Assembly: GCA_001464455.1 (NCBI GenBank)
Contig: LNEI01000029.1
Location: 1-64,000, forward strand
Reading direction: 5' to 3'
From: Acidobacteria bacterium Ga0077534
GTDB taxonomy: Bacteria; Acidobacteriota; Blastocatellia; Pyrinomonadales; Pyrinomonadaceae
DNA: 64,000 nucleotides
The notes beneath the pieces are model-generated. The model searched no databases and had not been told where the DNA came from. It saw only the letters and a list, made by a program, of their open reading frames with translations. Numbering within the stretch: the first letter of the stretch is position 1; every line of letters begins with the position of its first letter. Shown here in pieces: positions 25,568-39,419 of the stretch. The translations under genes and the position numbers were made by a program.

Positions 25568-28500
25568 TTACTGCAGGCCCACCATGTCCACACCACTAAC
25601 ATCGTTCGCGATATTGAGAGCCCGCGAGGAAAATCTGTAGCGTTTCGAAGTGACTGCGATCGTATAGTTCGAACCGGGATTGACATCGCTGAAGGTGTAA
25701 ACCCCGAACGAACTTGTCGTAACTGTGCGAACTGACCCGTCACCCGCGACCAGACGGACCTGAGCGTTTCGAATACCCACGCCTTCGGGCGTAAGAACTC
25801 GACCTGTGACCGAGAAAAGCGGCGTTGCACCGATCAGAACGTTACCATGTTCGTACGCCGCAGGCAGGAGGGCTCCTTCGGTGCTTGAAACGCTTTGTAA
25901 TGTCGGAGAGCTGGCAAATATAACGGGATAGCTACCAACACTTGCGTCTGCTGAGACTTGGAACAGCACCGTCATCACTTCGCGGGTGCCTGCCGTATAC
26001 GCGTTTGTTGAGTCAACGAGAACCCCTATTTTGCCGCTGGCTGCCTGTTGAGTATTCAGCGATAAGTTGGATCCCGTAGGAACCCCAGAACCGATCGTAG
26101 CAGAGACAAATGTCATCACCGACGGGTTAAAGTTCAGCGTAAAGCTGGTCGACGACTCGTTGCCGGTTGCATCGAACCTGACCGGAACCCTCGCTATCTC
26201 ACCTCTGGCACCGAAAATATTCTCTACTCGGAGTGTTCGTACCGAAAGATCAGGCGATTCGAGCGACGGCGGTTCCGTATTTCCAGTCGGCCCGGTTGGT
26301 CCGCAGACAGGTTTGGATGGGAAGATGCCCAAATTGTACGCGGCGATCACGGTCACGTCACCTGCATCGATCTGGCCGTTTCCACATTCGCCAAACTCCG
26401 GAGTTCGGTTAACGTCTGCCGCCTGGAATTGCGGGCCCGACGGGATCGGCGGAATGTTTCCGAGCAGCACTTGACGGATGTAGGTCACATCGTTTGCCAG
26501 AACGGCATTGTCGCCGGCGGGCCCGCCATTTGCGTCGACAACGTCACCCTCTACTCTCTGGCTCAGGCCTTCGTCGTTGAGGATCGTTCCGGTTCCGCTC
26601 GCGGTTCCGATGACGCCGTTCGTGACGCTCGTTATGGTGATCGTGAAGGTCTCATTCGGCTCGACAACAGTATCTCCCACGACATTGACGGTCACGGTCT
26701 TGGTCGTTTCGCCGGGGGCGAAGGTCACGCTTCCTGTAGCGGCAGCGTAGTCGCCCGGAGCGACAGCCGTGCCATTTGCAGTGGCGTAGGTAAGGACTGA
26801 CGAGAATGCCGTCGGATTACCCGAACGCGTGAATGTAAATACAAATGGGGTCGTTCCTGAATTGCCCTCATTTGCGCTCACACTGTTGACCGAGAATCGC
26901 GGTTCGACGTCGTCGTTAAAGATAGTGCCGATGCCGTCAAACTCGATGATGCTCGCATTGACCGGATTCGAAAGCCTGACGATGAAGACCTCGTTCGGCT
27001 CGAACTTGATATCACCGTTTACTGTCACGTTTACTCTTTGCAGTGTTGGCGAATTGCTGGCAAACGTCAGCCTGCCCTGCGCCGCGACATAATCGCCGTC
27101 GGCTACGGTCGCCGTTCCGTCGATGGTCGTAAAATCAACCGAGCGGGCAGGCTGTCCCTGCGAAGGAAGCTCGGTGATCGTGACATCAAAGGCAAACGTC
27201 GTCGAACCCGAATCGGTCTCGTTCCGCGTTACGTTCGTAATTCGGAAGATCGGGCCAGCAGGCAGCGGAGCAACGCTTACCTGTACCGTCGAAGCATTAT
27301 TATCGCCGTTCGCATCGCCACCACCAGCGACGCTTGCAGTGTTTGTAATGCTCAACGCCGAGGTGGAAAGAACATTGACGGCTACAACGATCGTAGGAGC
27401 GATCTCGTTCGAATTTAGAACGGCCGATCGCGAACAGCTTACAACCGTCGAGGTGGACGCCGAACAGTTCCAGCCGGAACCGGATGCGGTAACGAGTGCG
27501 AGGCCAGCCGGCAAATTATCCGTTACGGTATAGGTACCGACCGTTGGGCCCGCACCGACATTTCTAACAACCAAGTTGAACGATGCCGAAGCTCCCTGCT
27601 GGAAGCTGCTTCCCGCTGACTTAACGATCGTCAGATCCGGCGGCAACGGCGTCGGTGTCGGTGTTGGCGTCGGCGTTGGCGTTGGCGTCGGTGTCGGCGT
27701 CGGTGTCGGCGTCGGCGTAGGCGTCGGCGTCGGTGTCGGAGTCGGCGTCGGAGTTGGCGTCGGAGTTGGCGTCGGAGTTGGCGTCGGTGTCGGCGTCGGA
27801 GTTGGCGTCGGAGTTGGCGTTGCGGTCGGTGTTGGTGTGGGTGTCGGCGCACCGCAAGCCTGTGAGTAACGAACTGCCGTGTTTGCAGGGATAGCCGCGT
27901 TGGCGTAGAAGAATGAGCTCGCGATCGAGCCACTCTCGTCCTCGATCCCTGCCGTCGCATTGTCAGGCAGAGGCTCACCGTCCGGTCGGCTTACTTTACC
28001 GCCACTAGGACGATCATCACCACCCGAACCTGTGCTCGGCGGTGTCGTTTGGACATAGTGTGCTTCGATATCGTTCGAACCTTCAAAGATCTTGATCTGG
28101 AAGGTCTGCGCCGGAGAGGTAAACGGATGATTCGGAATTCCTTTATACTCCACGATAAAGACTCGACTTCCCGGCGTTCCTAATGTCTGGTAGAAAATAC
28201 CATCGCCAACGGCAGCATTATCCGGCCGGAGATCCGTCCAGAAACCCGCAATTACGCCGTTAGGGTTGTCAACGGATGGGATAGGCTGACCTACACAGCA
28301 CCCGGCACCCTGGTTAGGCAGCACGGATAGGAAACCATTCGACGAGACGTATATCTTGGTATAGGTATTACCAAAATAATTAAAGGGGAAGTCCAAATTG
28401 ATCTCACCGACGCTATCATCGTCTAAGAACAGCGTATCTCCCGTTTCGCTGATCTCCTGGAAAGCGAAGGGCGGCGTACTCTGCACGTAAGTCGTCTCAC

Positions 28501-31102
28501 ATGCAGGAGGCACGCCGGTTTCGAATGCACCAATGTCTGAGCCATTTCCGCCCGGAGCATTGGCAACATCAGGATCATCAACCGGACGCGGCGAATTGCG
28601 CTGATCGGTCGTTACCCCGGGGGCAGCTGCTCCCTTATCGATCGCTGGACTTCCTGAAATAGGCCTGTGCGTCAAAGTTGGGCCGCCGTTATCTTCCAAA
28701 GGCAAAAGCGCCGGGTCAATGGGCGAGTCGAGATTGCCGACGATGTCGTTAGTTGCTCCGGAGAAGCCGATAGCATCTCCAACTATGCCGATCAGATTAT
28801 GACCGAGCGAGTTGAACTGCCCGAAGACATCAGAAGATTCAAAACCATTACGCGCAATGATGGTAGTCCGTATGGCAGGAGCCGGAATTATACCATCAGC
28901 ACTGTTAATATCGACGTTCTCGACATACAGGCCTGATCCAGCTGCTCCTCCAAAATTATTCGTGATCGTCGAGTTGGTAATGGCTACTTGCGATCCAAAG
29001 TCGGCAAAGATGCCGCCGCCAAGACCGTCTACGCCTTTCCCTTGGTTACTACCGGTAGAAGAATTTCCCGAGACGGTCGAATTCACCATTGTGAGCTGAC
29101 CTGCTCCGATTCCCAATTCGGGTGAATCCGGACGCCGGGGCAATCCTCTTACATGGATGGCTCCACCGTCACCGCCTAGGCTGGTGTTATCGTTTAGGGT
29201 CGAACGAGTTATATTCACCGTTCCCTCAGCGAAAATAGCTCCTCCGGGACCGCCGTTCGACGTGTTGTTCGCAAGTTTTGTTTCAATTACATTTACTGTC
29301 GAGCCAAAACCTACGTAGAGAGCTCCGCCGCCAACAAAGCCTGTTGGTGCTTCAACAGATGCAGGTGAGCTCGGAAGCAAATTGCTGCAGACCTCTAAAC
29401 GCGATCTTGTGATCGTGACGTTTGTACCGAACGAAGCAAAGATACAGGCTCCATTAAAATCGCGTGCGTCGAGCATGCTTAACGCATTCAAATTTACGTT
29501 GATGGCCTCCAACCCGCCGCTCGGAGCATCTCCACTTCTAAGAAGGCCTCCAATAAAGAAGATGCGGCGCTGATTATTACCACTTACGATGATATCGTTG
29601 CTCTCGCCATCGATCGTCAAAGGCTTGTCGATCACGATCTGATTCGAGGTGAGGCGGATCTCTAAACGTGGCCCCGTAAATGTGATGCGGCTGTTCGGAC
29701 ATGCGTCGATCACCGCTTGGCGAAGACTGCCAGGCCCGCTGTCGTTCTGATTTATGACAACCGGATCGACAATACAACCTGGTGTAGGAGTTGGCGTTGC
29801 CGTCGGGGTTGCGGTTGGTGTTGCCGTGGGTGTAGCCGTCGGGGTTGCGGTTGGCGTCGCCGTCGGTGTCGGCGTTGGTGTTGGCGTCGGCGTCGGCGTC
29901 GGCGTCGGCGTTGGTGTTGGTGTTGGTGTTGGTGTCGGCGTCGGCGTTGGTGTTGGCGTGGCGGTCGGCGTTGGAGTCGGCTCCGCGAAATTGGCAGTAC
30001 AGTTCTTATTAGGAGCGTCCATCACGACATTCGTGACCGGATTGGTTCCCGAACAGTCTCCCGTCCAGTTCACAAACCCAAATCCCGAATTCGCCGTCGC
30101 AGTTAACTGAACACTTTGATTCTGTCCATAAAACTGCGTACACAAAACACCCGGACACTGGATTCCACCCGGCGTACCAGCTACTGAACCACCAAACACC
30201 GGCGAAATAGGATTGATCGTTACCGTGAGATCGTTGGGGGTAGGTGTTGGCGTTGGCCCAGCGGACCCCTGCGGTGTGATCGAAAAATCGTCGACTGCCA
30301 ACCCGTCATCGGCTCCCGAAGCATCCGGGTCGTTCCACCGTATGAAAAATGTGGCGCCGTTTGGAATATTCAGTGACGGTATAGTTGTCGACAGCGTGGT
30401 TCGGTTTGCGGCCGCATTTCCATCTTTAGCTCCTGTCGTTCCGGTTTCGGGGGTGATGAAGTCCAATGCATCGACATCCGTATATGTTCCGGTGCTAAGG
30501 TCAGTCGCGTCGGTACTGATCTGAAAGTCGAGCCGATCAGTTCGTGCCGTAGTGCCGAGACGCCATTCTTCTCCGGTATAAGAAATGAGTAGCGAGGTGA
30601 TCGTGCTGCCAGTGCTGTTAACGAATCTGGCTCCAAAAACCGGGATCAGCGTTCCACTTCGCAGTCCGCCCAACGCCCGCTCTGTCGTGGACGCAGCCCC
30701 ATAACTGTAGGTGTCGCCCGTGTTGCTGGCACCAGTGTCCGCACCGTACTGTTCGTTATCACGCGCTCCTCCGCCAGTTTCCGTTAGATACCATCCCGTC
30801 GGTAGGGTTGAATTTGTCGTGCCGCTGTTAGCAAGCGAGTCGAAGTTCTCGGTCACTGCGTTGCCCAGCGTGTCGAGCGAAACGCTGCCAGTACCCGTAT
30901 CGAAGGGGCGAAGTGATGAGTCAGTCGCACCGAATGATGTCTCGGCCGTCTGCATCCCGAAAAGTTGCTTCATGGAATCTACCACCGAAGACCTTTCCGC
31001 GTTCGCCGCGGCGGTCGCGTAGGCGAGAACCAGCCCTGAAACAATAACAGTAGATAATAAAACGCTGATGACACGACCCTGCGACGACATTTTTTTCGAC
31101 AT
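25568..31102 (-). CDS. Giant multidomain secreted surface protein with dockerin-like, cohesin-like and Thr-Pro linker regions
   Basis: About 1844 residues from ATG 31102, which has GGGAGA 8 bases upstream and a signal peptide after it. In order: an N-terminal choice-of-anchor-type beta domain; a bacterial repeat with [15 protein letters not shown]; a Thr-Pro linker (29782-29985); a beta-helix with SPAIDKGA near its end; a nidogen-like segment ([23 protein letters not shown]); a second Thr-Pro linker (27637-27852); a DUF11 domain ([13 protein letters not shown]); two Calx-beta domains; a dockerin-like segment with two EF-hand-like loops ([12 protein letters not shown] and [10 protein letters not shown]...[12 protein letters not shown]); a cohesin-like domain; and the shared carboxypeptidase-regulatory tail. 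It is probably a calcium-binding cell-surface or released adhesin; no sortase or PEP-CTERM signal is visible. Confidence 0.82.
27637..27852 (-). repeat. Hexanucleotide array encoding Thr-Pro linker 2
   Basis: About 36 copies of a 6-base unit read as GGNGTN on the plus strand, encoding alternating Thr and Pro on the minus strand. Third positions vary (T, C, A), so it is not a pure microsatellite. Units of six keep the frame if copy number changes. Confidence 0.9.
29782..29985 (-). repeat. Hexanucleotide array encoding Thr-Pro linker 1
   Basis: Same GGNGTN-type unit, with occasional Ala codons, encoding a Thr-Pro/Thr-Ala linker of roughly 68 residues between a bacterial-repeat domain and the beta-helix of the giant protein. 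Confidence 0.9.
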
Positions 31103-31338
31103 GACAAATATCTCCCTTAAATGACCGACGGACACGAACCCTCTGGCGCGCCCGTTCTCAAAACGGCAACCGAAAAAACTGATTTGCTGCTCTTAACCTC
31201 TAGAATATAGCGCACTTAGTAAGTTTTTTATAAATAAATGCTCCTGAGTTAACAGAAATGAAAGGCCACTTACTCGTACGAGCGCCTTCCTGACTATAAA
31301 GTCTGGATCGATGTCATATCTACAACGAAGACCAGAGA

Positions 31339-31560
31339 TTAGATTCGTCGTTCCCTACCAAGGCGATCATTCCCAACTGAACTTCGCAGCCCTCTGCAAT
31401 TCCACGCATTTTGCAACACTTTGTGCGTTATTGTGCGTTTCACGCGGAATGCTGTTTCTTTTTTGAAACGTTTGATGTAGGCTGAAAATCGATCGGACGG
31501 AATCTGTAAGCGGCGACAGAAATCTCGTTTACCGGCGTCGCCCGTGAATCGTCCGATCAT
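31339..31560 (-). CDS. Small uncertain ORF, possibly a DNA-binding protein
   Basis: Up to 73 basic residues from ATG 31560. The segment GKRDFCRRLQIPSDRFSAYIKRFKKE has a helix-turn-helix-like spacing (Leu-x-Ile-Pro turn). It sits divergently 21 bases from the endolysin start at the left edge of the phage-like block, where a regulator would be expected. There is no ribosome site, and I recognise no family. The remaining bases 31136-31338 show nothing. Confidence 0.3.
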   Translation of the reverse strand: MIGRFTGDAGKRDFCRRLQIPSDRFSAYIKRFKKETAFRVKRTITHKVLQNAWNCRGLRSSVGNDRLGRERRI

Positions 31561-31581
31561 TTGATATCTCAAAACAGTTGA

Positions 31582-32670
31582 ATGACTACGACTTTCACAG
31601 ATAAAGACAAATTAAAGGCCCTGGCGATTGTGCATGTTTTTGAGACGGGCAAGCCGTTTGGTGACTACGCGGCGTGCGTTGTGCTAAATGACGGAGCCGG
31701 AGTTTCCTACGGGATTAACCAGTTCACGCACCGGTCGGGCTCGCTCGCAGCGGTTGTGCGTACATATTTGAGTCTCGGCGGAACCGTCAGCCGCGAGACG
31801 CTGAGCGCAAAACTTCCCTCGCTCGCCGATAAATCAGCCGGTTCGGTCGCAAGACTCAGCCGTGATGAGCAGTTCAAGCGTGCTCTGCGTGCCGCGGCCG
31901 CAACCGGCGAGATGCGCCTCGCTCAGCGGCGCGTCGCTGAGGAAAGATACCTACAACCGGCGATCGACACATGCGAACGTATGGGTTTCGTCACGCCGCT
32001 GGCGCTCGCGGTCGTTTACGATTCCATAACGCACGGCTCTTGGGATTGGATCTCAGCCCGTGTGAAGGCATCGGTGCCGAGCGTCTATCGTGACCCGCTG
32101 ATATTCGAAAAAAGCTGGATCACCGAATACGTCCGGCTTCGTCACCGCTGGCTGACCGAAGTTCGGCGGCTGCGTGTGACCAACTACCGCACGAAGTTCT
32201 TTTTGAACCAGATCGCCATTTCGAATTGGACGCTCGCCCTGCCGCTGACCGTCCACGGTGCGCGGATCACAAATGAGCACCTCGACAAACCTCTCGAAAA
32301 CTCGGTCGCGGTAGAGACAACCTCCGACGCGCAGGATCGGCCGCCCATCGCGCCAGCCGAAACCGAGGCAATACCGTGGCCGGAGCCCTCTATCACTGAA
32401 AAAGCGGGCCAATTCGCATCGACGGCGGCCAGCGGTTTCGACCGCATCGACGGAGCGTTCAATTCGCTCGTCCGCCGCAGCGACGCGGCGAAATCGATGT
32501 GGACGACCGTCGCGGGTTCCGCGTCGCAGGCTGCGTGGGCCGTCTTCGGCTTCGTCATCGGCCTGCCGCGCGTCGTCTGGATCGGCGTAGCCGCAATAGC
32601 AGCCGCGCTCACGCTCCTCTATCTATACAGACAAATAACCCTCGGCCGCATCCGCGAACTCAGACAATAA
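31582..32670 (+). CDS. GH46 chitosanase/lysozyme-like endolysin with C-terminal membrane segment
   Basis: 362 residues. The N-terminal ~230 resemble GH46 chitosanases of the lysozyme superfamily. E21 in VHVFETG and D37 in LNDGAGVSYGINQF occupy the positions of the general acid and base, and AQRRVAEERYLQPAIDTCERMG...AVVYDSITHG aligns with the DERDRVYFDPAV...YYDAIVMHG region of Streptomyces CsnA. A variable linker follows and then one or two hydrophobic segments (about 310-350, WIGVAAIAAALTLLYLY). Heading a holin/spanin/portal block, it is most likely a membrane-tethered phage endolysin acting on peptidoglycan. True chitosanase activity is less likely in this setting. Confidence 0.7.
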   Translation: MTTTFTDKDKLKALAIVHVFETGKPFGDYAACVVLNDGAGVSYGINQFTHRSGSLAAVVRTYLSLGGTVSRETLSAKLPSLADKSAGSVARLSRDEQFKRALRAAAATGEMRLAQRRVAEERYLQPAIDTCERMGFVTPLALAVVYDSITHGSWDWISARVKASVPSVYRDPLIFEKSWITEYVRLRHRWLTEVRRLRVTNYRTKFFLNQIAISNWTLALPLTVHGARITNEHLDKPLENSVAVETTSDAQDRPPIAPAETEAIPWPEPSITEKAGQFASTAASGFDRIDGAFNSLVRRSDAAKSMWTTVAGSASQAAWAVFGFVIGLPRVVWIGVAAIAAALTLLYLYRQITLGRIRELRQ

Positions 32671-32690
32671 ACGGTTCAACGGGCATTCTA

Positions 32691-32731
32691 CTGACCGCTG
32701 ACCACTGACCACTGACCACTGACCACTGATT
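32691..32731 (+). repeat. Heptamer array CTGACCA abutting the holin-like start codon
   Basis: Six tandem 7-base units (CTGACCG, four CTGACCA, CTGATTA) fill the spacer and run into ATG 32732, leaving no Shine-Dalgarno sequence. Confidence 0.85.
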
Positions 32732-32917
32732 ATGAACGACACCAAAAACATCCTCCTCGCCTGGGCCAGCTCGGCCCCGACGATCCTAGCCGCCATTGAC
32801 GGCGTGACCTGGATCAGCGTTGTTTCGGCCATCGTGCTGCCGATACTTTTTTTCGCCATCGGCAAAACCGTAGACGTGCTGCTTCAGATCTACTTCCGCA
32901 ATCGCAAAGAAAAATGA
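32732..32917 (+). CDS. Holin-like small membrane protein
   Basis: 61 residues: a short N-terminus, one or two hydrophobic segments (WISVVSAIVLPILFFAIGKTVDVLLQIYF) and a basic tail (RNRKEK). Size, topology and place between an endolysin and spanin-like genes suggest a holin or pinholin that would release or activate the lysin. Its stop overlaps the next start by 4 bases (ATGA), so translation is coupled. No sequence family can be named. Confidence 0.5.
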   Translation: MNDTKNILLAWASSAPTILAAIDGVTWISVVSAIVLPILFFAIGKTVDVLLQIYFRNRKEK

Positions 32918-33309
32918 ACTCGATCCCGCAACACCTGAAATACATCGCTATCGCCGCGGCGGTGATCGTCATCATCGCATTTGCGGCAGACCGGTACTCG
33001 AGCTTTCGGGAGCGAACGCTCGAAACCTCGGCTGCTGAAACCAAGGCAAATGCGGCCGAAACCCAACGACGCGCCGAGCAGCTCGAAAGCGATGCCGCCG
33101 CGTACCGAGAAAAGATCGCATATCTCGAGGATCGAATAACCGAGATCAGCCGGATCGCAAGGAAACAAGATGAAGAGATCAAACTACATTCTAGCCGCAG
33201 CAATGCTGCTCGCGGCGATGCTGAACGTGCCCGTGGCACCAGGGCAATCGACACAACCACCCGCCAGCTCTGCGAAAAGCTCGCCGAGCTCGGACACGGA
33301 TGCGAATAA
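32914..33309 (+). CDS. Inner-membrane spanin-like (Rz-type) coiled-coil protein
   Basis: 131 residues with an N-terminal membrane anchor (YIAIAAAVIVIIAFAADRY) and a long Ala/Glu/Arg-rich coiled coil (about 30-95), as in Rz inner-membrane spanins. The last 140 bases are read in a second frame by the next gene, the arrangement typical of Rz/Rz1 pairs. The call rests on topology and position, not on sequence identity. Confidence 0.5.
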   Translation: MNSIPQHLKYIAIAAAVIVIIAFAADRYSSFRERTLETSAAETKANAAETQRRAEQLESDAAAYREKIAYLEDRITEISRIARKQDEEIKLHSSRSNAARGDAERARGTRAIDTTTRQLCEKLAELGHGCE

Positions 33310-33643
33310 GGCTATTAAAGCCTGCATGGCCGTTGCCGTCGAACTCGAAAAGACCCGGATCTTGGCCGATGCCCTCGAAATCGAAAAGCGCGTCGTTACC
33401 GAACGCCTCGAAACCGAGCGAAAAAGGACCGCCCTACTAACCGAGCTCGCCGCCACTCGCAGAAGCGAAGCGGAGGCTCTCGTAAAAGCTATCGAAGCCA
33501 AAAACGAAACCATCGCCGCCAAAGACGCGGTCATCGCGGCACATGAGAAACTGACCGCGTCGTTGAAAGCAAAACGCCCTTCGCTGCTCCGACGCATCGG
33601 CGACATTCTCGCGGGTGCGGCGGCGGTTGCGATCTTTAAGTAG
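33170..33643 (+). CDS. Exported coiled-coil protein overlapping the spanin-like gene
   Basis: 157 residues starting inside the preceding gene in another frame, with an AAGGAA site 5 bases before ATG 33170. A signal peptide (MKRSNYILAAAMLLAAMLNVPVAPGQ), a Pro/Ser-rich stretch, a long coiled coil (about 60-135) and a hydrophobic C-terminus (IGDILAGAAAVAIF) follow. Its position matches an Rz1-type outer-membrane spanin, but it lacks a lipobox cysteine and is longer than Rz1, so it may be an unusual spanin or a different envelope protein. Confidence 0.5.
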   Translation: MKRSNYILAAAMLLAAMLNVPVAPGQSTQPPASSAKSSPSSDTDANKAIKACMAVAVELEKTRILADALEIEKRVVTERLETERKRTALLTELAATRRSEAEALVKAIEAKNETIAAKDAVIAAHEKLTASLKAKRPSLLRRIGDILAGAAAVAIFK

Positions 33644-33652
33644 AGGACCGAT

Positions 33653-34948
33653 ATGAACAAAGACATTGAAACAGCCATCTCAAGCATCCGCGCGTCGTCG
33701 CTCGCTGTCGACAAACCGCAGCGGTACTACGACGGACAGCACGACCTCGCGTTTGCGACCGAGAAATTTAAAAGCACCTTTGGGTCGCTCTTCCGCGAAT
33801 TCGCACTAAACCTCTGCCCGGTCATCTGCGACGCGGTCCGCGACAAATTGCGTGTGACAGGATTCACCCGTATGAGTGACGGATCTAGCCGTGATCCGGA
33901 AATCACGCCTAAGGACGTGACTCATACTATCTGGAATCGAAACCGAATGGCGACGCGCTCCGGCAGCGTTCACAAGGAAGCACTCGTATGCGGGAATGCG
34001 TATCTGTTAGTATGGCCCGACGCCCTAGGACGCGCCGCATTCTACCCGAACCGTGCGTCGCAGGTAACCGTGAAGTATGACGAGGACGAGCCCGGCCACA
34101 TAAAGTGGGCGGCAAAGGCGTGGACAGATGCGTTAAACCGTATGCGTTTGAACATCTTCTATCCGGACCGCATCGAACGCTATGTTTCCAGGGCGACGGC
34201 TCAGGCAATCCCCGAAGCAAAGGAGTTTCAGCCGTTCGACGACGTAGGCCGGCGATCCGGCGTGATCGCAAACCCCTACGGTGTCGTCCCCGTCTTTCAC
34301 TTTGCTAACAACGCCGATCTTGGCAGTTTGGGACGCAGCGAGATCGATGCGGCGATGCCGGTTCAGGACGGGCTGAATAAGTCGGTACTCGACATGCTGG
34401 TCGCGATGGAGTTCTCGGCATTTCGCCAACGCTGGGCCGCTGGCATCGAGGTCGACTACGACGCGGAAGGCAAGGCCGTCGCTCCGTTCGAAAGCAGCAT
34501 CGACCACCTTTGGATCGCCGGCAGCCCGAATGCGAGATTTGGCGATTTCGAATCGGCCCAGCTCGATCAATTTCTGAAGGTAAAGGACAGCTTCCGCATC
34601 GACATGGCGTCGGTCACCGGCACACCGCTTCACTACTTCTTGCAAAACAACGCCGGCTTGCCGAGCGGCGAGGCCCTAAAGAAACTCGAGACGCGTTTCA
34701 TCGCCAAGATCCGCGACCGCCAGGAGAACTTCGGCCAGGTGTGGTCCGACGCGATGGCTTTTGCCCTACGTATCGAAGGCCGCGAAGGAACAGAACTGAT
34801 CACCCAATGGGAAGACCCGTCACCCGCGTCGGAGCGCGAGTTCCTCGAGAACATTCTCTTGAAAAGACAGATCGGCCTACCCGTGGGCGACGCACTACTC
34901 GAAGCCGGATATGGAGCTGCGGACGTAAATAGGATGGACGCGCTCTAA
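33653..34948 (+). CDS. Phage portal protein, SPP1 gp6-like
   Basis: 431 residues. The N-terminal YYDGQHDLAF...FREFALNLCPVICDAVRDKLRVTGF, then GNAYLLVWPD, NPYGVVPVFHF, GRSEIDAAMPVQDGLNKSVLDMLVAMEFSAFRQRW and TPLHYFLQN follow the SPP1-gp6/HK97-type portal family of tailed actinophages and relatives. The portal forms the dodecameric DNA gate in one capsid vertex. It begins 9 bases after the spanin-like gene, so lysis and head genes are in one transcript. Normally a large terminase gene lies directly upstream; here lysis genes are there instead. Confidence 0.88.
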   Translation: MNKDIETAISSIRASSLAVDKPQRYYDGQHDLAFATEKFKSTFGSLFREFALNLCPVICDAVRDKLRVTGFTRMSDGSSRDPEITPKDVTHTIWNRNRMATRSGSVHKEALVCGNAYLLVWPDALGRAAFYPNRASQVTVKYDEDEPGHIKWAAKAWTDALNRMRLNIFYPDRIERYVSRATAQAIPEAKEFQPFDDVGRRSGVIANPYGVVPVFHFANNADLGSLGRSEIDAAMPVQDGLNKSVLDMLVAMEFSAFRQRWAAGIEVDYDAEGKAVAPFESSIDHLWIAGSPNARFGDFESAQLDQFLKVKDSFRIDMASVTGTPLHYFLQNNAGLPSGEALKKLETRFIAKIRDRQENFGQVWSDAMAFALRIEGREGTELITQWEDPSPASEREFLENILLKRQIGLPVGDALLEAGYGAADVNRMDAL

Positions 34949-34951
34949 ATA

Positions 34952-35473
34952 TCAGTCACTAAAAGTTGGCGGATGAGGTGGATTGGTATAACCCAAAACC
35001 CGGTAGCGGTCAAAATAGACTAACTCACGACGGCCAAACCCGATGCGATAGAGAAAAAATCCGTAGACACCAGCAATCGCAAGCTTTAGCAAAACATCGA
35101 GCCATTGAGGAAAGCCGGTCAAATAGCTGGAAACGCGGAAATTATCATCGGGCCATAACACGTCAAGGACAAGCGTTGCGACAACCCAAGCGAAAACACC
35201 GCAGGAGAATAATCTGCCGATACGGTTCCCTTTGATCATCCCCCACGACGCTAGCCCGGTTATGCCCAGAATGAGTATCAATAACAGGATTCTCAGAACG
35301 AAAGCCGTAATCAATGGTTCTCGTCCGTCTGAAACAGAGATGCCGTAGTAGGCGAGCGTATCCGTCATGTAATAAAAAACGAAAAACGGTGAAGCTACAT
35401 GCGCCAAGGCCGTGAATATCAAAAGAGTCTGAGCGAGAATGACCGTCATCGGACGCTTAACGAGATTTTCCAT
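34952..35473 (-). CDS. Four-helix membrane protein, opposite strand inside the phage block
   Basis: 173 residues with four hydrophobic segments (VILAQTLLIFTALAHVASPFFVFYY, FVLRILLLILILGITGLASW, LFSCGVFAWVVATLVLDVLW, LLKLAIAGVYGFFLYRIGF). I recognise no family. It lies between portal and scaffold-like genes but on the other strand, so it is an insertion relative to normal head-gene order, as with phage morons. Its stop is 4 bases from the portal stop. A lysogenic-conversion, exclusion or simple chromosomal origin are all possible. Confidence 0.6.
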   Translation of the reverse strand: MENLVKRPMTVILAQTLLIFTALAHVASPFFVFYYMTDTLAYYGISVSDGREPLITAFVLRILLLILILGITGLASWGMIKGNRIGRLFSCGVFAWVVATLVLDVLWPDDNFRVSSYLTGFPQWLDVLLKLAIAGVYGFFLYRIGFGRRELVYFDRYRVLGYTNPPHPPTFSD

Positions 35474-35510
35474 GGTAGCTATTCGACGATATCACCAAGA
35501 TTCTACGACT

Positions 35511-35969
35511 ATGAACACAACCACACAACCACACAAGATCGCGGGCGAGCCCGCGGATGAACTGGGGCCGGAGACGGCCGCAGATGTAACGCCCGATACC
35601 GAGATGGTCTCGCTTCGGGCTGAGAATGAAAGGCTCAAAACGACCATCCGAAATGCGGCGGCTCACCGGCAGATAACGGGCGAGTTGGGACGCATCGGGG
35701 CACGGTCGCCTGAGCTGCTTTTTGAGTTCGTAAAGGGCGATCTGCAGTTTGCAGATAACGACGCGGTCATCAACGCGGCCGCCCTGATCGAGCGCATGCG
35801 ACGCTCGTTTCCCGAGCAGTTCGTGGTCGAAAGGCCAACGGCGATCGACGCCGCAGCCGGACAGGCGATACCGCCGAGGCTCTCAAAAGAGGCCCTGGGA
35901 CGCATGACCGCGGCCGAGATCGCCGAGCTCGACTGGAACGATGTAAAGCGAGTGCTCAGCGCGTCGTAG
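35511..35969 (+). CDS. Phage scaffold-like protein
   Basis: 152 residues from ATG 35511; the longer frame to 35439 would run over the start of the opposite membrane gene. It is acidic and mostly helical, with a coiled-coil heptad run (TEMVSLRAENERLKTTIRNAAA) and a C-terminal helix (AEIAELDWNDVKRVL). Small acidic helical proteins between portal and major capsid genes are commonly scaffolds or capsid-assembly factors. No protease motif is seen. The assignment depends on position. Confidence 0.5.
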   Translation: MNTTTQPHKIAGEPADELGPETAADVTPDTEMVSLRAENERLKTTIRNAAAHRQITGELGRIGARSPELLFEFVKGDLQFADNDAVINAAALIERMRRSFPEQFVVERPTAIDAAAGQAIPPRLSKEALGRMTAAEIAELDWNDVKRVLSAS

Positions 35970-35972
35970 CCT

Positions 35973-36094
35973 GCAAAAGCCCGCGCGTAAGCAAGGGCGA
36001 AACATGCAACATCACGACGAAAGAACCTTCCACATGAGTACTTCGATAACCATTGACTTGAATGTATCGCCCTTGCTCACGCGCGGGCTTTCGC
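35973..36094. repeat. REPIN-like element: 28-base inverted repeat
   Basis: Arms at 35973-36000 and 36067-36094 are complementary at 26 of 28 bases, built on AAAGCCCGCGCG and GCAAGGGCGA, with a 66-base internal segment. It lies between the scaffold-like and capsid genes. Such paired palindromes are typical of RAYT-mobilised REP elements; no RAYT transposase is in the window. Confidence 0.75.
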
Positions 36095-36152
36095 AATGCG
36101 TTCTTCCGGTCCTACCACGGAATAAACGGAAAGACACGGAATAGAACCGAGG

Positions 36153-36201
36153 ATCAAAGACCAAAGGTCAAAGATCAACTAACCATCAACAACTAACCAC
36201 A
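36153..36201 (+). repeat. Degenerate heptamer array upstream of the capsid gene
   Basis: Seven 7-base units (ATCAAAG, ACCAAAG, GTCAAAG, ATCAACT and diverged copies) end 11 bases before ATG 36213. No Shine-Dalgarno is visible between. ACCACGGAA-type repeats lie just upstream at 36116-36145. Confidence 0.6.
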
Positions 36202-36212
36202 AACAAAAAACT

Positions 36213-37064
36213 ATGGCATTAGATTTCATACCAACAGTATGGGCGGCGAGATTGCTCGTCGCTCTTGATAAGTCTCTCGTATACGGGCAGACGAATGTGT
36301 GTAACCGTGATTACGAGGGCGAGATCCGCTCGAGCGGAAATACCGTCAAGATCGCGTCGATCGGCGACGTGACCGTCGACGAATATACCAAAGACACAGA
36401 CATCGGCGACCCCGAGACGTTGACCGACAGCGAGCAGTCGCTGCTGATCGACCAGGCGAAGTATTTTAACTTCTACGTCGACTCGGTCGACCGTGCACAG
36501 CAAAACGTTAACGTGCTCGACGAGGCCATGCGGCGCGCGTCGTGGTCGCTACGCGATCATGCCGACACGTTTCTCGCCGGCATCATGGACGCCGCGGTTC
36601 CGGGTGGAAACAAGATCGGGACGACCGTCGACCCGATCGTCCCGACCAAGGACGACGCGTACGAGTACCTTGTCGACCTCGGAGTGCTGCTCGACGAGGC
36701 TAACGCTCCGCTCGATGGCCGCTTTGTCGTCGTACCGGCCTGGTTTCACGGGCTGCTCCTTAAGGACGAACGCTTTGTAAAAGCTGGGACGCGCGGCTCC
36801 GACGCGGCCCTTCGCAATGGCGAGGTCGGCCAGGCGGCCGGCTTTTCGATCCTCAAATCGAACAACGTTCCGAACACTGAGGGCGAGAAATACAAGATCA
36901 TCGCCGGCCATTCGATCGCGACGAGCTACGTCGAGCAGATCGTAGACGTTCAGACCTACAAACCCGAAAAACGCTTCGGCGACGCCGTCAAAGGCCTCCA
37001 CGTCTACGGCGCAAAGGTAGTGCGTCCGACGTGCCTCGCGCAGTTGATCGCGGATAAAGCGTAA
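36213..37064 (+). CDS. Phage major capsid protein, P22/HK97-fold type
   Basis: 283 residues. It opens with DFIPTVWAARLLVALDKSLVYGQTNVCNRDYEGEI, then GNTVKIASIGDVTVDEYTKDTDIGD, DQAKYFNFYVDSVDRAQQ, LDGRFVVVPAWFHGLLL and a C-terminal YKPEKRFGDAVKGLHVYGAKVVRP. This is the pattern of P22 coat-like capsid proteins in many siphophages of Actinobacteria and Proteobacteria. It would form the icosahedral shell with the portal and scaffold. No maturation cleavage region is evident. The reading frame is intact, so capsid assembly may still be possible. Confidence 0.85.
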   Translation: MALDFIPTVWAARLLVALDKSLVYGQTNVCNRDYEGEIRSSGNTVKIASIGDVTVDEYTKDTDIGDPETLTDSEQSLLIDQAKYFNFYVDSVDRAQQNVNVLDEAMRRASWSLRDHADTFLAGIMDAAVPGGNKIGTTVDPIVPTKDDAYEYLVDLGVLLDEANAPLDGRFVVVPAWFHGLLLKDERFVKAGTRGSDAALRNGEVGQAAGFSILKSNNVPNTEGEKYKIIAGHSIATSYVEQIVDVQTYKPEKRFGDAVKGLHVYGAKVVRPTCLAQLIADKA

Positions 37065-37067
37065 AAA

Positions 37068-37187
37068 GTAGTCGGTAGTCGGTAGCCGGTAGTCAGTAGC
37101 GATTGTCGGTGGCGATGATCAGACTTGACAACGGACTACGGACTACCGACTGCTACTACTGACTACCGACTACTGACTACTGACTAC
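37068..37187. repeat. Facing heptamer arrays forming a large imperfect hairpin
   Basis: Units of GTAGTCG (37068-37109) face units of TGACTAC/CGACTAC (37132-37187). The two arrays are reverse complements and can fold into a stem of roughly 40 pairs with mismatches, starting 3 bases after the capsid stop and ending 8 bases before ATG 37196. Confidence 0.8.
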
Positions 37188-37195
37188 TTAGACTT

Positions 37196-37510
37196 ATGTC
37201 CTATCTCGATAAACTAAAACAACTCACCGCCTGGGACGCAGAGCCCGCGTTGACCGAAACCGAGCTCGAAGACGTCCTCGCCTCGGTCGCTCTCGAAGAC
37301 ACAGTCGGCCTCAGCCCGCTTCACGAAGAGTGGACGCCGACTTACGACCTAAACGCCGCCGCCGCCCAGGCCTGGCTTCTGAAAGCCGCCAAAGCCGCCG
37401 CTCTCACCGACGAACCAACCGCCGGCATCGTGACATCAAAAATTTTCGACAACTGCCGAGCAATGGCGAGGCTATATGCGGGCAAGCGGAACGCGAGTAC
37501 CCGTATCTGA
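37196..37510 (+). CDS. Head-tail connector-like small protein
   Basis: 104 residues, directly after the capsid gene, where head-completion or connector proteins usually lie. The sequence is helical and acidic at the start (LTETELEDVLASVALED) and then basic (ICFDNCRAMARLYAGKRNAS-like end), with the WTPTYDLNAAAAQAWLLKAAKAA helix seen in many hypothetical phage neck proteins. No tail genes follow; the next gene is a chromosomal surface protein on the other strand. Confidence 0.5.
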   Translation: MSYLDKLKQLTAWDAEPALTETELEDVLASVALEDTVGLSPLHEEWTPTYDLNAAAAQAWLLKAAKAAALTDEPTAGIVTSKIFDNCRAMARLYAGKRNASTRI

Positions 37511-37536
37511 GTCTCAAGATCGCTTCTTGGTCTTTG

Positions 37537-37608
37537 TTCCGTGCCATTTGGTGTGATCCGTGGTCATATCTTTATGATTGACCACGGAAAACAGGTAAAT
37601 GCACGGAA
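37537..37608. repeat. Nested inverted repeat at the right edge of the phage block
   Basis: TTCCGTG (37537-37543) pairs with CACGGAA (37602-37608) and CCGTGGTCA (37558-37566) with TGACCACGG (37579-37587). Its right half resembles ACCACGGAA-type sequence at 36116-36145. It lies between the connector-like gene and the convergent DUF4394-like gene and may act as a terminator. Confidence 0.5.
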
Positions 37609-37631
37609 TAAGACCAGGGCGAAACGCGGTA

Positions 37632-39419
37632 TCAGTTTGCGACAAAGTCCACGTCGCCGAGAGTGTCAACGACCTGCACCAAACGAGATGCGAATGTGTA
37701 TCGGTTCGAGCTAATACTGATCACATAGCTGCCACCCGCCTCGACATCGGTAAACCGGTAATGCCCAAACGAACTGGTCGTAACAACACGCCGCGACCCG
37801 CCAGCGTCGGTCATCACAACCCGGGCATTGCGAAGCCCACGTCCATCAGCCGTCAGCACCCGGCCCGAAACGTCGACCCCAGCGGAGGTTACATTGACTA
37901 CAACGAAACCTGGTGCAAAACCCGAGACCACCTCAGCTCCATTGAGATCTCTTATCGAAAGCGGCACCGGTGTATTTTCAAACGTTATAGGGAAGGTCCC
38001 GACAAACGACGCTGGCGACACAACAAAAGCTACTGTTATCAGCTGACGCGTTCCGGCCGGCAGGGGCGACGGAAGATCGATGGTTACGCCGATGCGGCCC
38101 GACGAAACCTGGCTCAGATCCGTGATCAGCTGCGAGCCAGCGGCGCCAGGAGCGACGCTCACAACTGGATTCTGCAGGACCGCTGCATTGTAGACTATCG
38201 AAAAGCTCGCGAACTTCTCACCACCACGGGCTTCCATAACAAATGGAACGGTATTTGTGGCGCCTGGCATACCAGATACACTAACGGCCCGGATTATTGT
38301 CGCGTTCGGTGGAAACGGCGTGGGGGTAGGTGTCGGCGTGGGGACTGGCGTTGGCGTGGGGACTGGCGTTGGCGTCGGAGTAGGCAAAACCAATGGACCG
38401 AGCGGTATCGCCAACCCATCTATTACGCGTTCGCCACTGCCAATCTCGCCGATGATCGCTCCTGCTCCGGTTGCCAGATCGATCTGAACCAGATGCGGTA
38501 CCGAACTAATGTTAAGGGCCGCGTAAGCGAAACTCGAGCCGGGTGGAATGTCCATTCCGCCAAAGTTCGTGAAGTCAAAGCCAAGCGGCCCGATCGTCGT
38601 CAGCGTGCCGCCATTCGGCGAAGGTTCGCCGTTGATGCCGGCGATGCGTATCAATGTGTTCGCTTCAGAATCGATGCCGTACAGCGTGCTCGCTGATGAA
38701 CCAGTGGTGATCGTGTGGGCAGCATGCACGATGCGCGGAGTAACACCGGCATTTGGGTCACCCGCGGCGTAGGTCAAAGGGGTATCGATGCCAAGAAGAG
38801 TTCCATTTGACGGGCTAAGCCGACGATTGGCTCGTTCGCGGCCAACATTCCGAATTATGTCGGCAGCAGGATGCACATCGAAACCTTGAAAAGTGTCTGG
38901 CAACGAAGCGATGGTATTTGTCGGATGCACCGGCGAAGCTACGCCAGTCGCGGTGTTTATCCGCACCACGCGAGCCGGTCCAGGAAAACGAGATACAAGT
39001 CCATAGAGTTGTCCATCGCTGGGCCGGAAATCAATTCCATAAATGGTCTCCCCATTATCGCGATTGACGCCCGTGACCTCGACATTCGTCAGGTAAGTCC
39101 CCGGAGTGGAAGCATCAAAGCTGACGAGCCGATTCTGAGAAAAATCGTATGCCCACAGGATCGTCCCTCCCGCGGGCCTGGCCTTCGGCAAGCCGTCGAC
39201 ATCGACCGGGGCATAACCGGGTTCGCGATCTGCTTCGATGCGTTGGCGGAGCTGATCTGGCAGTTTGCTTGTATCGATGGGATTGCTGCGGCCCGCCCCA
39301 TCAGCCAGCTGCGCATCACTTTTAACAGTAGTGGCCAGAAATACCGTGGCGAGGACTGCGACAAGAACTAAACCGACGATACTGCGAAATGGTGTGAGAC
39401 TGGGAAAAAGGCTTTTCAT
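37632..39419 (-). CDS. Secreted DUF4394-like protein with cohesin-like and carboxypeptidase-regulatory tail
   Basis: 595 residues with an N-terminal signal/anchor (SIVGLVLVAVLATVFLATTVKSDAQ). Residues about 80-345 resemble DUF4394 (LWAYDFSQNRLVSFDAS, YGIDFRPSDGQLYGL, IDGLAIPLG), a beta-propeller-like surface domain. A short Thr-Pro/Val-Pro linker follows, then a cohesin-like domain (EKFASFSIVYNAAVL, GRIGVTIDLPSPLPAGTRQ) and the C-terminal module GRVLTADGRGLRNARVVMTD...TTSSFGHYRFTDV, shared with the proteins at 24515 and 25568. Probably exported to the cell surface by a route that recognises the shared tail, or assembled through it. It is separated from its relatives by the phage-like block. 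Confidence 0.75.
   Translation of the reverse strand: MKSLFPSLTPFRSIVGLVLVAVLATVFLATTVKSDAQLADGAGRSNPIDTSKLPDQLRQRIEADREPGYAPVDVDGLPKARPAGGTILWAYDFSQNRLVSFDASTPGTYLTNVEVTGVNRDNGETIYGIDFRPSDGQLYGLVSRFPGPARVVRINTATGVASPVHPTNTIASLPDTFQGFDVHPAADIIRNVGRERANRRLSPSNGTLLGIDTPLTYAAGDPNAGVTPRIVHAAHTITTGSSASTLYGIDSEANTLIRIAGINGEPSPNGGTLTTIGPLGFDFTNFGGMDIPPGSSFAYAALNISSVPHLVQIDLATGAGAIIGEIGSGERVIDGLAIPLGPLVLPTPTPTPVPTPTPVPTPTPTPTPFPPNATIIRAVSVSGMPGATNTVPFVMEARGGEKFASFSIVYNAAVLQNPVVSVAPGAAGSQLITDLSQVSSGRIGVTIDLPSPLPAGTRQLITVAFVVSPASFVGTFPITFENTPVPLSIRDLNGAEVVSGFAPGFVVVNVTSAGVDVSGRVLTADGRGLRNARVVMTDAGGSRRVVTTSSFGHYRFTDVEAGGSYVISISSNRYTFASRLVQVVDTLGDVDFVAN

Follow-up and report, generated by a model that had tools for sequence, protein, structure and literature searches.

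Heptamer tandem arrays in intergenic spacers of an Acidobacteriota genome and their outward-G strand polarity

Known heptamer repeats and the arrays of the window

Tandem repeats of seven-base units have been described in many bacteria; in the literature consulted, neither their origin nor their role is settled, and polymerase slippage, G-quadruplexes and translation control are put forward as explanations. Here, we analyzed three such arrays, termed A, B and C, which precede start codons in a phage-like gene block of Acidobacteria bacterium Ga0077534 (assembly GCA_001464455.1). They lie in a window of 64,000 nucleotides, i.e., the whole stretch of DNA under study (contig LNEI01000029.1, positions 1 to 64,000, forward strand).

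The closest described counterparts are the GGGAATC and GGGGA(C/T)T heptamers of Xanthomonas and Nostoc, which are intergenic and preferred between aligned open reading frames (ORFs), with the G-rich strand being the coding one close to stops and the non-coding one close upstream of ORFs; inverted pairs are common in Xanthomonas (70 cases in Xcc) and few in Nostoc, and a function was not identified (Rehm et al. 2015, PMC4692102). The arrays described here are likewise heptameric and intergenic, lie between aligned ORFs, form inverted pairs and share the same strand preference. They differ in that the repeats of Rehm and coworkers represent one G-quadruplex-forming unit type, with 83% of repeats found at the same gene context in a close relative (PMC4692102), whereas our sample contained 35 distinct consensus heptamers, none of 41 tandem-gap arrays of the own genome was G-quadruplex-capable, and units were replaced between species.

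A second counterpart is the TAACTGA repeat of marine Beggiatoaceae, a single unit with 169 direct and one indirect repeat set, situated near start codons at which canonical Shine-Dalgarno sequences are rare and also found before ribosomal-protein genes (MacGregor 2015, PMC4679880). Our arrays also occur near starts with few Shine-Dalgarno motifs (1 of 23), but their units differ from one another, inverted pairs are common, and TAACTGA was none of the 56 consensus units of the own-genome sample. Heptamers were the commonest longer repeats according to Mrazek et al. 2007 (as cited in PMC4679880), with polymerase slippage as a cause. In the P6b stem of the Nostoc trnL intron, seven-nucleotide repeats are found whose class has been replaced repeatedly by another with a similar structure (Kaasalainen et al. 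2015, PMC4476775); seven-base units in a stem and class replacement are shared with our arrays, although P6b is one intron locus and the present arrays occupy many intergenic sites. Geobacter metallireducens carries heptamer families, with four to five units in tandem, regarded as putative regulatory elements (PMC2700814), and, unlike for our arrays, no polarity rule is given in the excerpt of that paper. Finally, repetitive extragenic palindromes and bacterial interspersed mosaic elements (REP/BIME), described alongside REP-associated tyrosine transposases (RAYTs), are intergenic inverted repeats in families dispersed in the genome (PMC3733652). In contrast to these, the two heptamer hairpins that we searched had no near-identical full copies. 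REP/BIME elements are not known to consist of tandem short units.

With a probability of roughly 0.53, we read the arrays as fast-turnover simple-sequence-repeat hairpins and spacers of the heptamer kind previously described in Xanthomonas, Nostoc and Beggiatoaceae. On this reading, the kind extends to Acidobacteriota, where one genome holds many different units, and, as in the repeats of Rehm and Mrazek, an excess over chance, an intergenic position between aligned ORFs and a strand rule were all observed. Such arrays were not reported from Acidobacteria among the listed matches of a search of open-licence papers. The repeat kind itself is already known; here it obeys an orientation rule for which earlier explanations do not readily account.

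The first-pass annotation, made from the letters of the window, had reported three heptamer arrays beside start codons. Their existence was corroborated by Tandem Repeats Finder (TRF), which called period-7 repeats at 32690-32729 (array A; 5.7 copies, 93% match), 36152-36178 (array B; 3.9 copies, 80% match), and 37068-37110 and 37126-37188 (array C; 6.3 and 9.1 copies), and by lag-7 scores of 30, 20 and 34 for the gaps of arrays A, B and C, which were reached by none of 5000 shuffles per gap, while seven other lags scored 9 or less. The stretch 37068-37187, annotated as one array, consists of two inverted complementary arrays, the left of which abuts the capsid stop codon. The arrays and the inverted repeat that shares the spacer of array B are the following:

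32690..32731, + strand: array A, single and A/C-rich, unit ACTGACC / TGACCAC (TRF and lag-7 score), 2 bases before ATG 32732
36143..36211, + strand: array B, degenerate and A/C-rich, AAAGATC/AACTAAC-type units (TRF and lag-7 score), ending before ATG 36213
37066..37099, + strand: left arm of array C, G/T-rich, GTAGTCG, starting 1 base past the capsid stop codon
37127..37151, + strand: array C, right half, inner portion with GGACTAC units (TRF)
37156..37189, + strand: A/C-rich right arm of array C with TGACTAC units, the complement of the left arm at a palindrome score of 26.5
35972..36009, + strand: left arm of a REP-like inverted repeat, not heptameric, in the spacer of array B
36058..36095, + strand: right arm of the same REP-like inverted repeat

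Array B, the most degenerate of the three, fades out about 1-11 bases before its ATG, and array C ends about 6-7 bases before ATG 37196. AGGA, GGAG and GAGG were absent from the 18 bases upstream of the starts at 32732, 36213 and 37196 (sequence read by eye). The array C gap had a predicted fold of -71.7 kcal/mol compared to a mean of -34.7 in shuffles (z -10.7). Array A showed neither a notable predicted fold (z -0.64) nor a partner array, and no Rfam family matched positions 31000-38500 at gathering scores.

Genomic placement and strand polarity

The window belongs to a 4.2-Mb draft genome, of which 855 kb (20%) was sampled as the window plus 40 stretches placed at contig starts and at even steps, not guided by array matches. 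Genes were called with our own codon-score caller, which rewards Shine-Dalgarno motifs in start choice, so that start positions and the Shine-Dalgarno comparison are biased. This sample contained 56 period-7 arrays compared to none in a Markov shuffle, and each control period between 4 and 20 that is divisible by neither 3 nor 7 gave 0-13 arrays, with 0, 2, 13, 11, 6 and 1 at periods 4, 5, 8, 10, 11 and 13, respectively. Period 7 also led the six periods counted in larger samples of two further genomes, where no shuffle was applied. An origin by chance or misassembly, for which the draft state of the genomes could be adduced, is refuted by these counts.

Gene overlap was below 30% in 45 of the 56 arrays, and arrays occurred in 29 of 420 co-directional gaps, 1 of 73 convergent and 1 of 79 divergent gaps (29/420 vs 2/152; Fisher p=0.006). 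A specificity for the phage-like block, as first proposed, did not hold: tandem gaps with arrays amounted to 3 of 27 in the window and 26 of 393 in the rest of the sample. In particular, they included 6 of 26 tandem gaps of a ribosomal-protein cluster (stretch L071) and 4 of 11 of the rplM-rpsI-rpsB-tsf-pyrH-frr stretch (L059), with gene names in both stretches read by eye. In ten genomes, arrays were found in 57 of 787 tandem gaps, a stretch of genome G020 being counted in this analysis only. The nearest start or stop lay at a median distance of 6 bases for 67 arrays, compared to 26 for random placement. Arrays near stops outnumbered those near starts (27 vs 15), which leaves the suggested role in translation control at start codons weak, as do the stop-side polarity counts given below. 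Scatter through all intergenic regions had been named as the outcome that would speak against the annotation; in the 20% sample of the genome, the arrays were scattered indeed, yet with a preference for gene borders.

Array density differed among the other genomes of the genus, with 12 arrays in 100 kb of G012 and 0-6 in six others (80-100 kb each); 100-kb samples of G041 and G022 contained no period-7 array. Four of these genomes yielded 1-3 array gaps each and two none. Convergent and divergent gaps also held arrays in G026 and G012. Counts from a pattern search across genomes were not used, since a backwards control pattern also matched several of them (up to 31, G007). G026, which belongs to the same class and another family, had 165 period-7 arrays in 484 kb (e.g., L249), a density biased upward because its contigs were taken from those listed by an earlier pattern search and not at random. 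Some of its arrays contain TTTAGGG/TTCAGGG-like units, which resemble plant-type telomere repeats.

In three genomes (G000 and larger samples of G026 and G012), arrays near a gene border obeyed one rule, namely, that the G-richer strand reads 5' to 3' away from the gene. The count is restricted to arrays that have a single border within 25 bases, i.e., 111 of 234 gap arrays, with 117 lying more than 25 bases from both borders and 6 near both; many of the distant ones, half of the 234, are probably from G026. Per gap, the outward-G orientation prevailed 76:8 at period 7 (18:4 in G000, 32:2 in G026 and 26:2 in G012, plus 3 ties), 26:0 at period 8 and 11:3 at period 9. The ratio was 40:5 in gaps where no partner was detected, 12:2 in convergent and 3:0 in divergent gaps; paired arrays and related genomes are not fully independent in the polarity counts. 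The ten-genome count, which left out arrays in gaps longer than 500 nt or near both or neither border, gave C>G on the sense strand for 15 of 15 start-proximal and G>C for 23 of 27 stop-proximal arrays, with a median A+C content of 0.74 and 0.34, respectively (p=1e-6). In the larger samples, start-proximal arrays were C>G by 26 to 2.

Array-free gaps were near even in G000 (239:270) and G012 (157:131; convergent stops 30:14), and G-biased in G026 (28:10). As array-free convergent gaps of G012 and G026 were G-biased too (37:15), the convergent count is the weaker part of the polarity evidence. Mid-gap arrays showed no polarity (8:14). Palindromes without a period-7 array had a similar tendency, with a G>C to C>G ratio of 23:8 in left arms and 7:16 in right arms. 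Stop-side arrays of tandem gaps, counted per array, followed the rule 15:2 when they lacked a partner, and 24:2 when at least 150 bases separated them from the following gene. Selection on the start side, considered as the sole cause of the polarity, is argued against by these arrays. The capacity to form G-quadruplexes (four G-runs of at least 3) was seen in 0 of 41 own tandem-gap arrays, 10 of 27 in G026 and 1 of 6 in G012. Since the rule holds in arrays without this capacity, at stops and without a partner, neither G-quadruplexes nor start-codon selection suffices as a general cause of the polarity. An outward-G rule shared by many such units and alike at starts and stops, together with the replacement of units, thus argues against both as general causes of heptamer arrays, and provides a measurable target for any model of them.

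Intergenic palindromes with units of about 8-9 bases (CGCAAAGA, CACAGAGA, CACGAAT and GCGGATAAA types) were noticed by eye at L041, L047, L051, L058, L066, L077 and L078 and in the capsid gap of L144, L148, L151 and L166; they fill the same kind of gaps as the heptamer arrays.

Turnover at orthologous gaps and possible origin of the arrays

Among 31 genomes of the genus searched (the own included), the rpsB locus was found in 29, and the rplM-rpsI gap was readable in 28. This gap carried TGACCAC units in the own genome, AAAATCC in L080 and L094, AACTCGG in L082, AACTCCG in L101 and AAGTTCA in L107; elsewhere, it held other or unclear repeats or just 2-36 bases (eight loci). Mean pairwise identity among distinct gaps of 40-330 nt was close to that of shuffled sequences for rplM-rpsI (0.524 vs 0.500) and tsf-pyrH (0.525 vs 0.494), and palindromes with a score of at least 12 were present in 7 of 19 and 16 of 26 of these gaps, respectively. 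The capsid-connector gap carried units GTAGTCG (own), GCCGTCA (L138, with an 88% identical capsid), GTTGTCA (L141), AAGGAAT (L142) and GGTCATT (L159), other palindromes in L144, L148, L151 and L166, and seven spacers of 12-19 bases, six of which had a strong Shine-Dalgarno sequence. Across 74 distinct orthologous gaps (the two ribosomal-region sites plus capsid-connector), 37 had a palindrome of at least 12, with period 7 being the best period in 21 of them. For the capsid and holin gaps, sequences were read at loci other than L109-L136.

At closer range, three of four gaps were 0.89-1.00 identical between L092 and L093 (93% DNA identity), while the fourth (0.77) contained a different hairpin sequence between the same flanks. 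This hairpin had no full copy elsewhere in its genome, only single-arm matches of 29-34 bases. Because the heptamer of a given gap can be exchanged among relatives for another one, for a palindrome of a different sequence or for a short Shine-Dalgarno spacer, units turn over and, judged from these comparisons, look dispensable. Fast-changing gaps within conserved ribosomal-protein clusters are a good test bed, as their flanking genes align across the genus.

A complementary partner was found in the own gap for 35 of 52 arrays, and in other gaps in 38 of 606 comparisons. Palindrome scans, covering gaps of 25-300 or 25-330 nt, detected scores of at least 12 in 60 of 259 tandem gaps, in none of the shuffles and in 16 of 40 convergent gaps. 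Of 23 starts with an array close by, 1 had a Shine-Dalgarno motif, compared to 192 of 622 starts lacking such an array (62 of 622 upon shuffling); beside start-proximal arrays the motif is absent because the array fills that space.

The data demonstrate the position, pairing, polarity and turnover of the arrays. A common generating process, put forward in the first-pass annotation, agrees well with the recurrence of one architecture (period 7, intergenic position, inverted pairs, fixed polarity) with many units across the sampled genome. Within the simple-sequence-repeat reading, arrays would be born and reshaped at the DNA level through a combination of slippage and the copying of short tandem units by fold-back (template switching), and would be tolerated as dispensable sequence in spacers where no promoter or coding sequence is hit. 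The three start-adjacent arrays would then exert no dedicated control of the phage-like genes; they would sit at a site that in some relatives is a Shine-Dalgarno spacer, and translation would presumably begin from a G-poor leader lacking this motif. Several observations weigh against this reading. Slippage and fold-back alone fail to explain a polarity tied to gene borders. Unit families recur within the genome (ACCACTG accounts for 12 of the 56 arrays), and the own rplM-rpsI hairpin, while having no near-identical copy, aligns with four places over 68-82 of its 85 bases at 79-80%, which together is more than independent births would give. A mirrored order of unit variants between arms was seen in 2 of 32 testable hairpins (of 42; p<=0.05, permutation), and the combined tests equalled expectation (chi2 66.8 on 64 df), so that recent fold-back copying is invisible in most hairpins. 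Growth direction left no trace in 97 arrays, with closeness to consensus of 0.867 on the border side and 0.837 on the inner side (p=0.33). Moreover, parts of the rpsI-rpsB and rpsB-tsf gaps are conserved (0.665 and 0.661 vs 0.556 and 0.540 shuffled), and arrays within ribosomal-protein clusters could also be read as function.

Selection for intercistronic RNA hairpins, in which paired arrays would fold in the mRNA, shielding or processing the message upstream or attenuating the gene downstream, and the stem would be kept while its sequence drifts, is unlikely in our judgement. It would account for the strong predicted folds between co-directional genes, both in array C and in the tandem gaps with palindromes, and for orthologous gaps that keep palindromes without sequence conservation. 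However, pairing at the RNA level should leave an excess of G.U over A.C mismatches, and none was found in palindrome stems (54:49 and 37:33). Palindromes were also at least as frequent in convergent gaps, array A has neither partner nor notable fold, the samples of G041 and G022 were free of period-7 arrays, and several relatives have gaps of 2-20 nt at the same sites. We consider it doubtful that the arrays are footprints, rather than regulatory elements, of one strand-symmetric, polar process of DNA synthesis or repair at gene borders that is blind to transcription and translation and writes the same unit at either end of a spacer, the G-richer strand running inward. Such a process would act on many units of 7, 8 and perhaps 9 bases, turned over within genera, and may be likened to the polarity of telomeric repeats. 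As a possible mechanism, we propose priming by the folding back of G/T-rich 3' ends; these could pair with themselves through G.T and G.G, unlike A/C-rich ends.

REP-like mobile hairpins or miniature inverted-repeat transposable elements, spread by a RAYT or another transposase, would fit the dispersal of unit families and the older-looking 79-80% alignments of one heptamer hairpin. The genome has 10 Y1_Tnp matches (RAYT-like), with REP-like motifs paired near two of them (L258, L261) and single near L265 and L267. We nevertheless hold this origin to be improbable, given that the two hairpins searched whole lack a near-identical full copy, that a period-7 array lies within about 1.5 kb of 1 of the 10 Y1_Tnp loci, and that the units would seem to differ too widely for one transposase. 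Very improbable, too, is translation control, suggested in the first-pass annotation and, for TAACTGA, by MacGregor 2015. In this view, A/C-rich heptamers near starts would take over from the Shine-Dalgarno sequence in recruiting ribosomes, or would attract a protein that binds the repeat. The C>G bias of start-proximal arrays, the scarcity of Shine-Dalgarno motifs beside them and an A/C-rich array of relative L139 at the same holin gap as array A are in line with it. The outward rule applies equally at stops in tandem gaps, however, as well as in convergent gaps, although the latter are G-biased in G026 and G012 even when array-free. Furthermore, the two genes of the holin gap overlap in 15 of the 24 loci at which they share a strand, and six of the short capsid-connector gaps have a strong Shine-Dalgarno sequence instead.

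The phage-like block and its surroundings

The genes of the block were assigned as follows:

31582..32670, + strand: GH46-like gene upstream of array A (PF01374, 1.7e-12)
32732..32917, + strand: 61-aa gene after array A, holin-like by eye only, without PHROGs/Pfam match
33653..34948, + strand: phage portal protein gene (phrog_104, 1.2e-82; PF05133)
36213..37064, + strand: phage major head protein gene, flanked by arrays B and C (phrog_267, 1.5e-69; PF25209)
37196..37510, + strand: 104-aa gene after array C, connector-like by position only, without PHROGs/Pfam match

The portal and the capsid (major head protein) were confirmed, while for the proteins annotated as holin-like and connector-like neither PHROGs nor Pfam gave a match at E 0.001. 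Our gene caller started the capsid gene at 36252; homologues align from residue 1 of the 36213 start. The closest named relatives of the capsid gene are from metagenome-assembled genomes labelled Pyrinomonadaceae, Blastocatellia or Acidobacteria.

The block (31582-37510) comprises the GH46 gene, a small membrane-like gene, an Rz-like spanin, the portal and the head protein. Because the head protein is matched in 29 of the 31 genus genomes searched (the own included; partial in G018, broken in G023), mostly at 72-84% identity and often with the same neighbours, the block does not look like a stray prophage. It may represent a domesticated capsid or an element resembling a gene transfer agent; no report of such a block was found among the best 8 of 38 literature matches. 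Predicted prophages have been described in other Acidobacteria (PMC5900883, excerpt).

The REP-like arms in the spacer of array B (35972-36009 and 36058-36095) have dozens of matches in the genome, often as close inverted pairs. Long arrays of another kind, with periods 6/12/36/48 and of the GGCGTC type, are located at 27647-27849 and 29790-29981, inside a minus-strand ORF of 1855 codons (25568-31135), where they perhaps encode a low-complexity linker.

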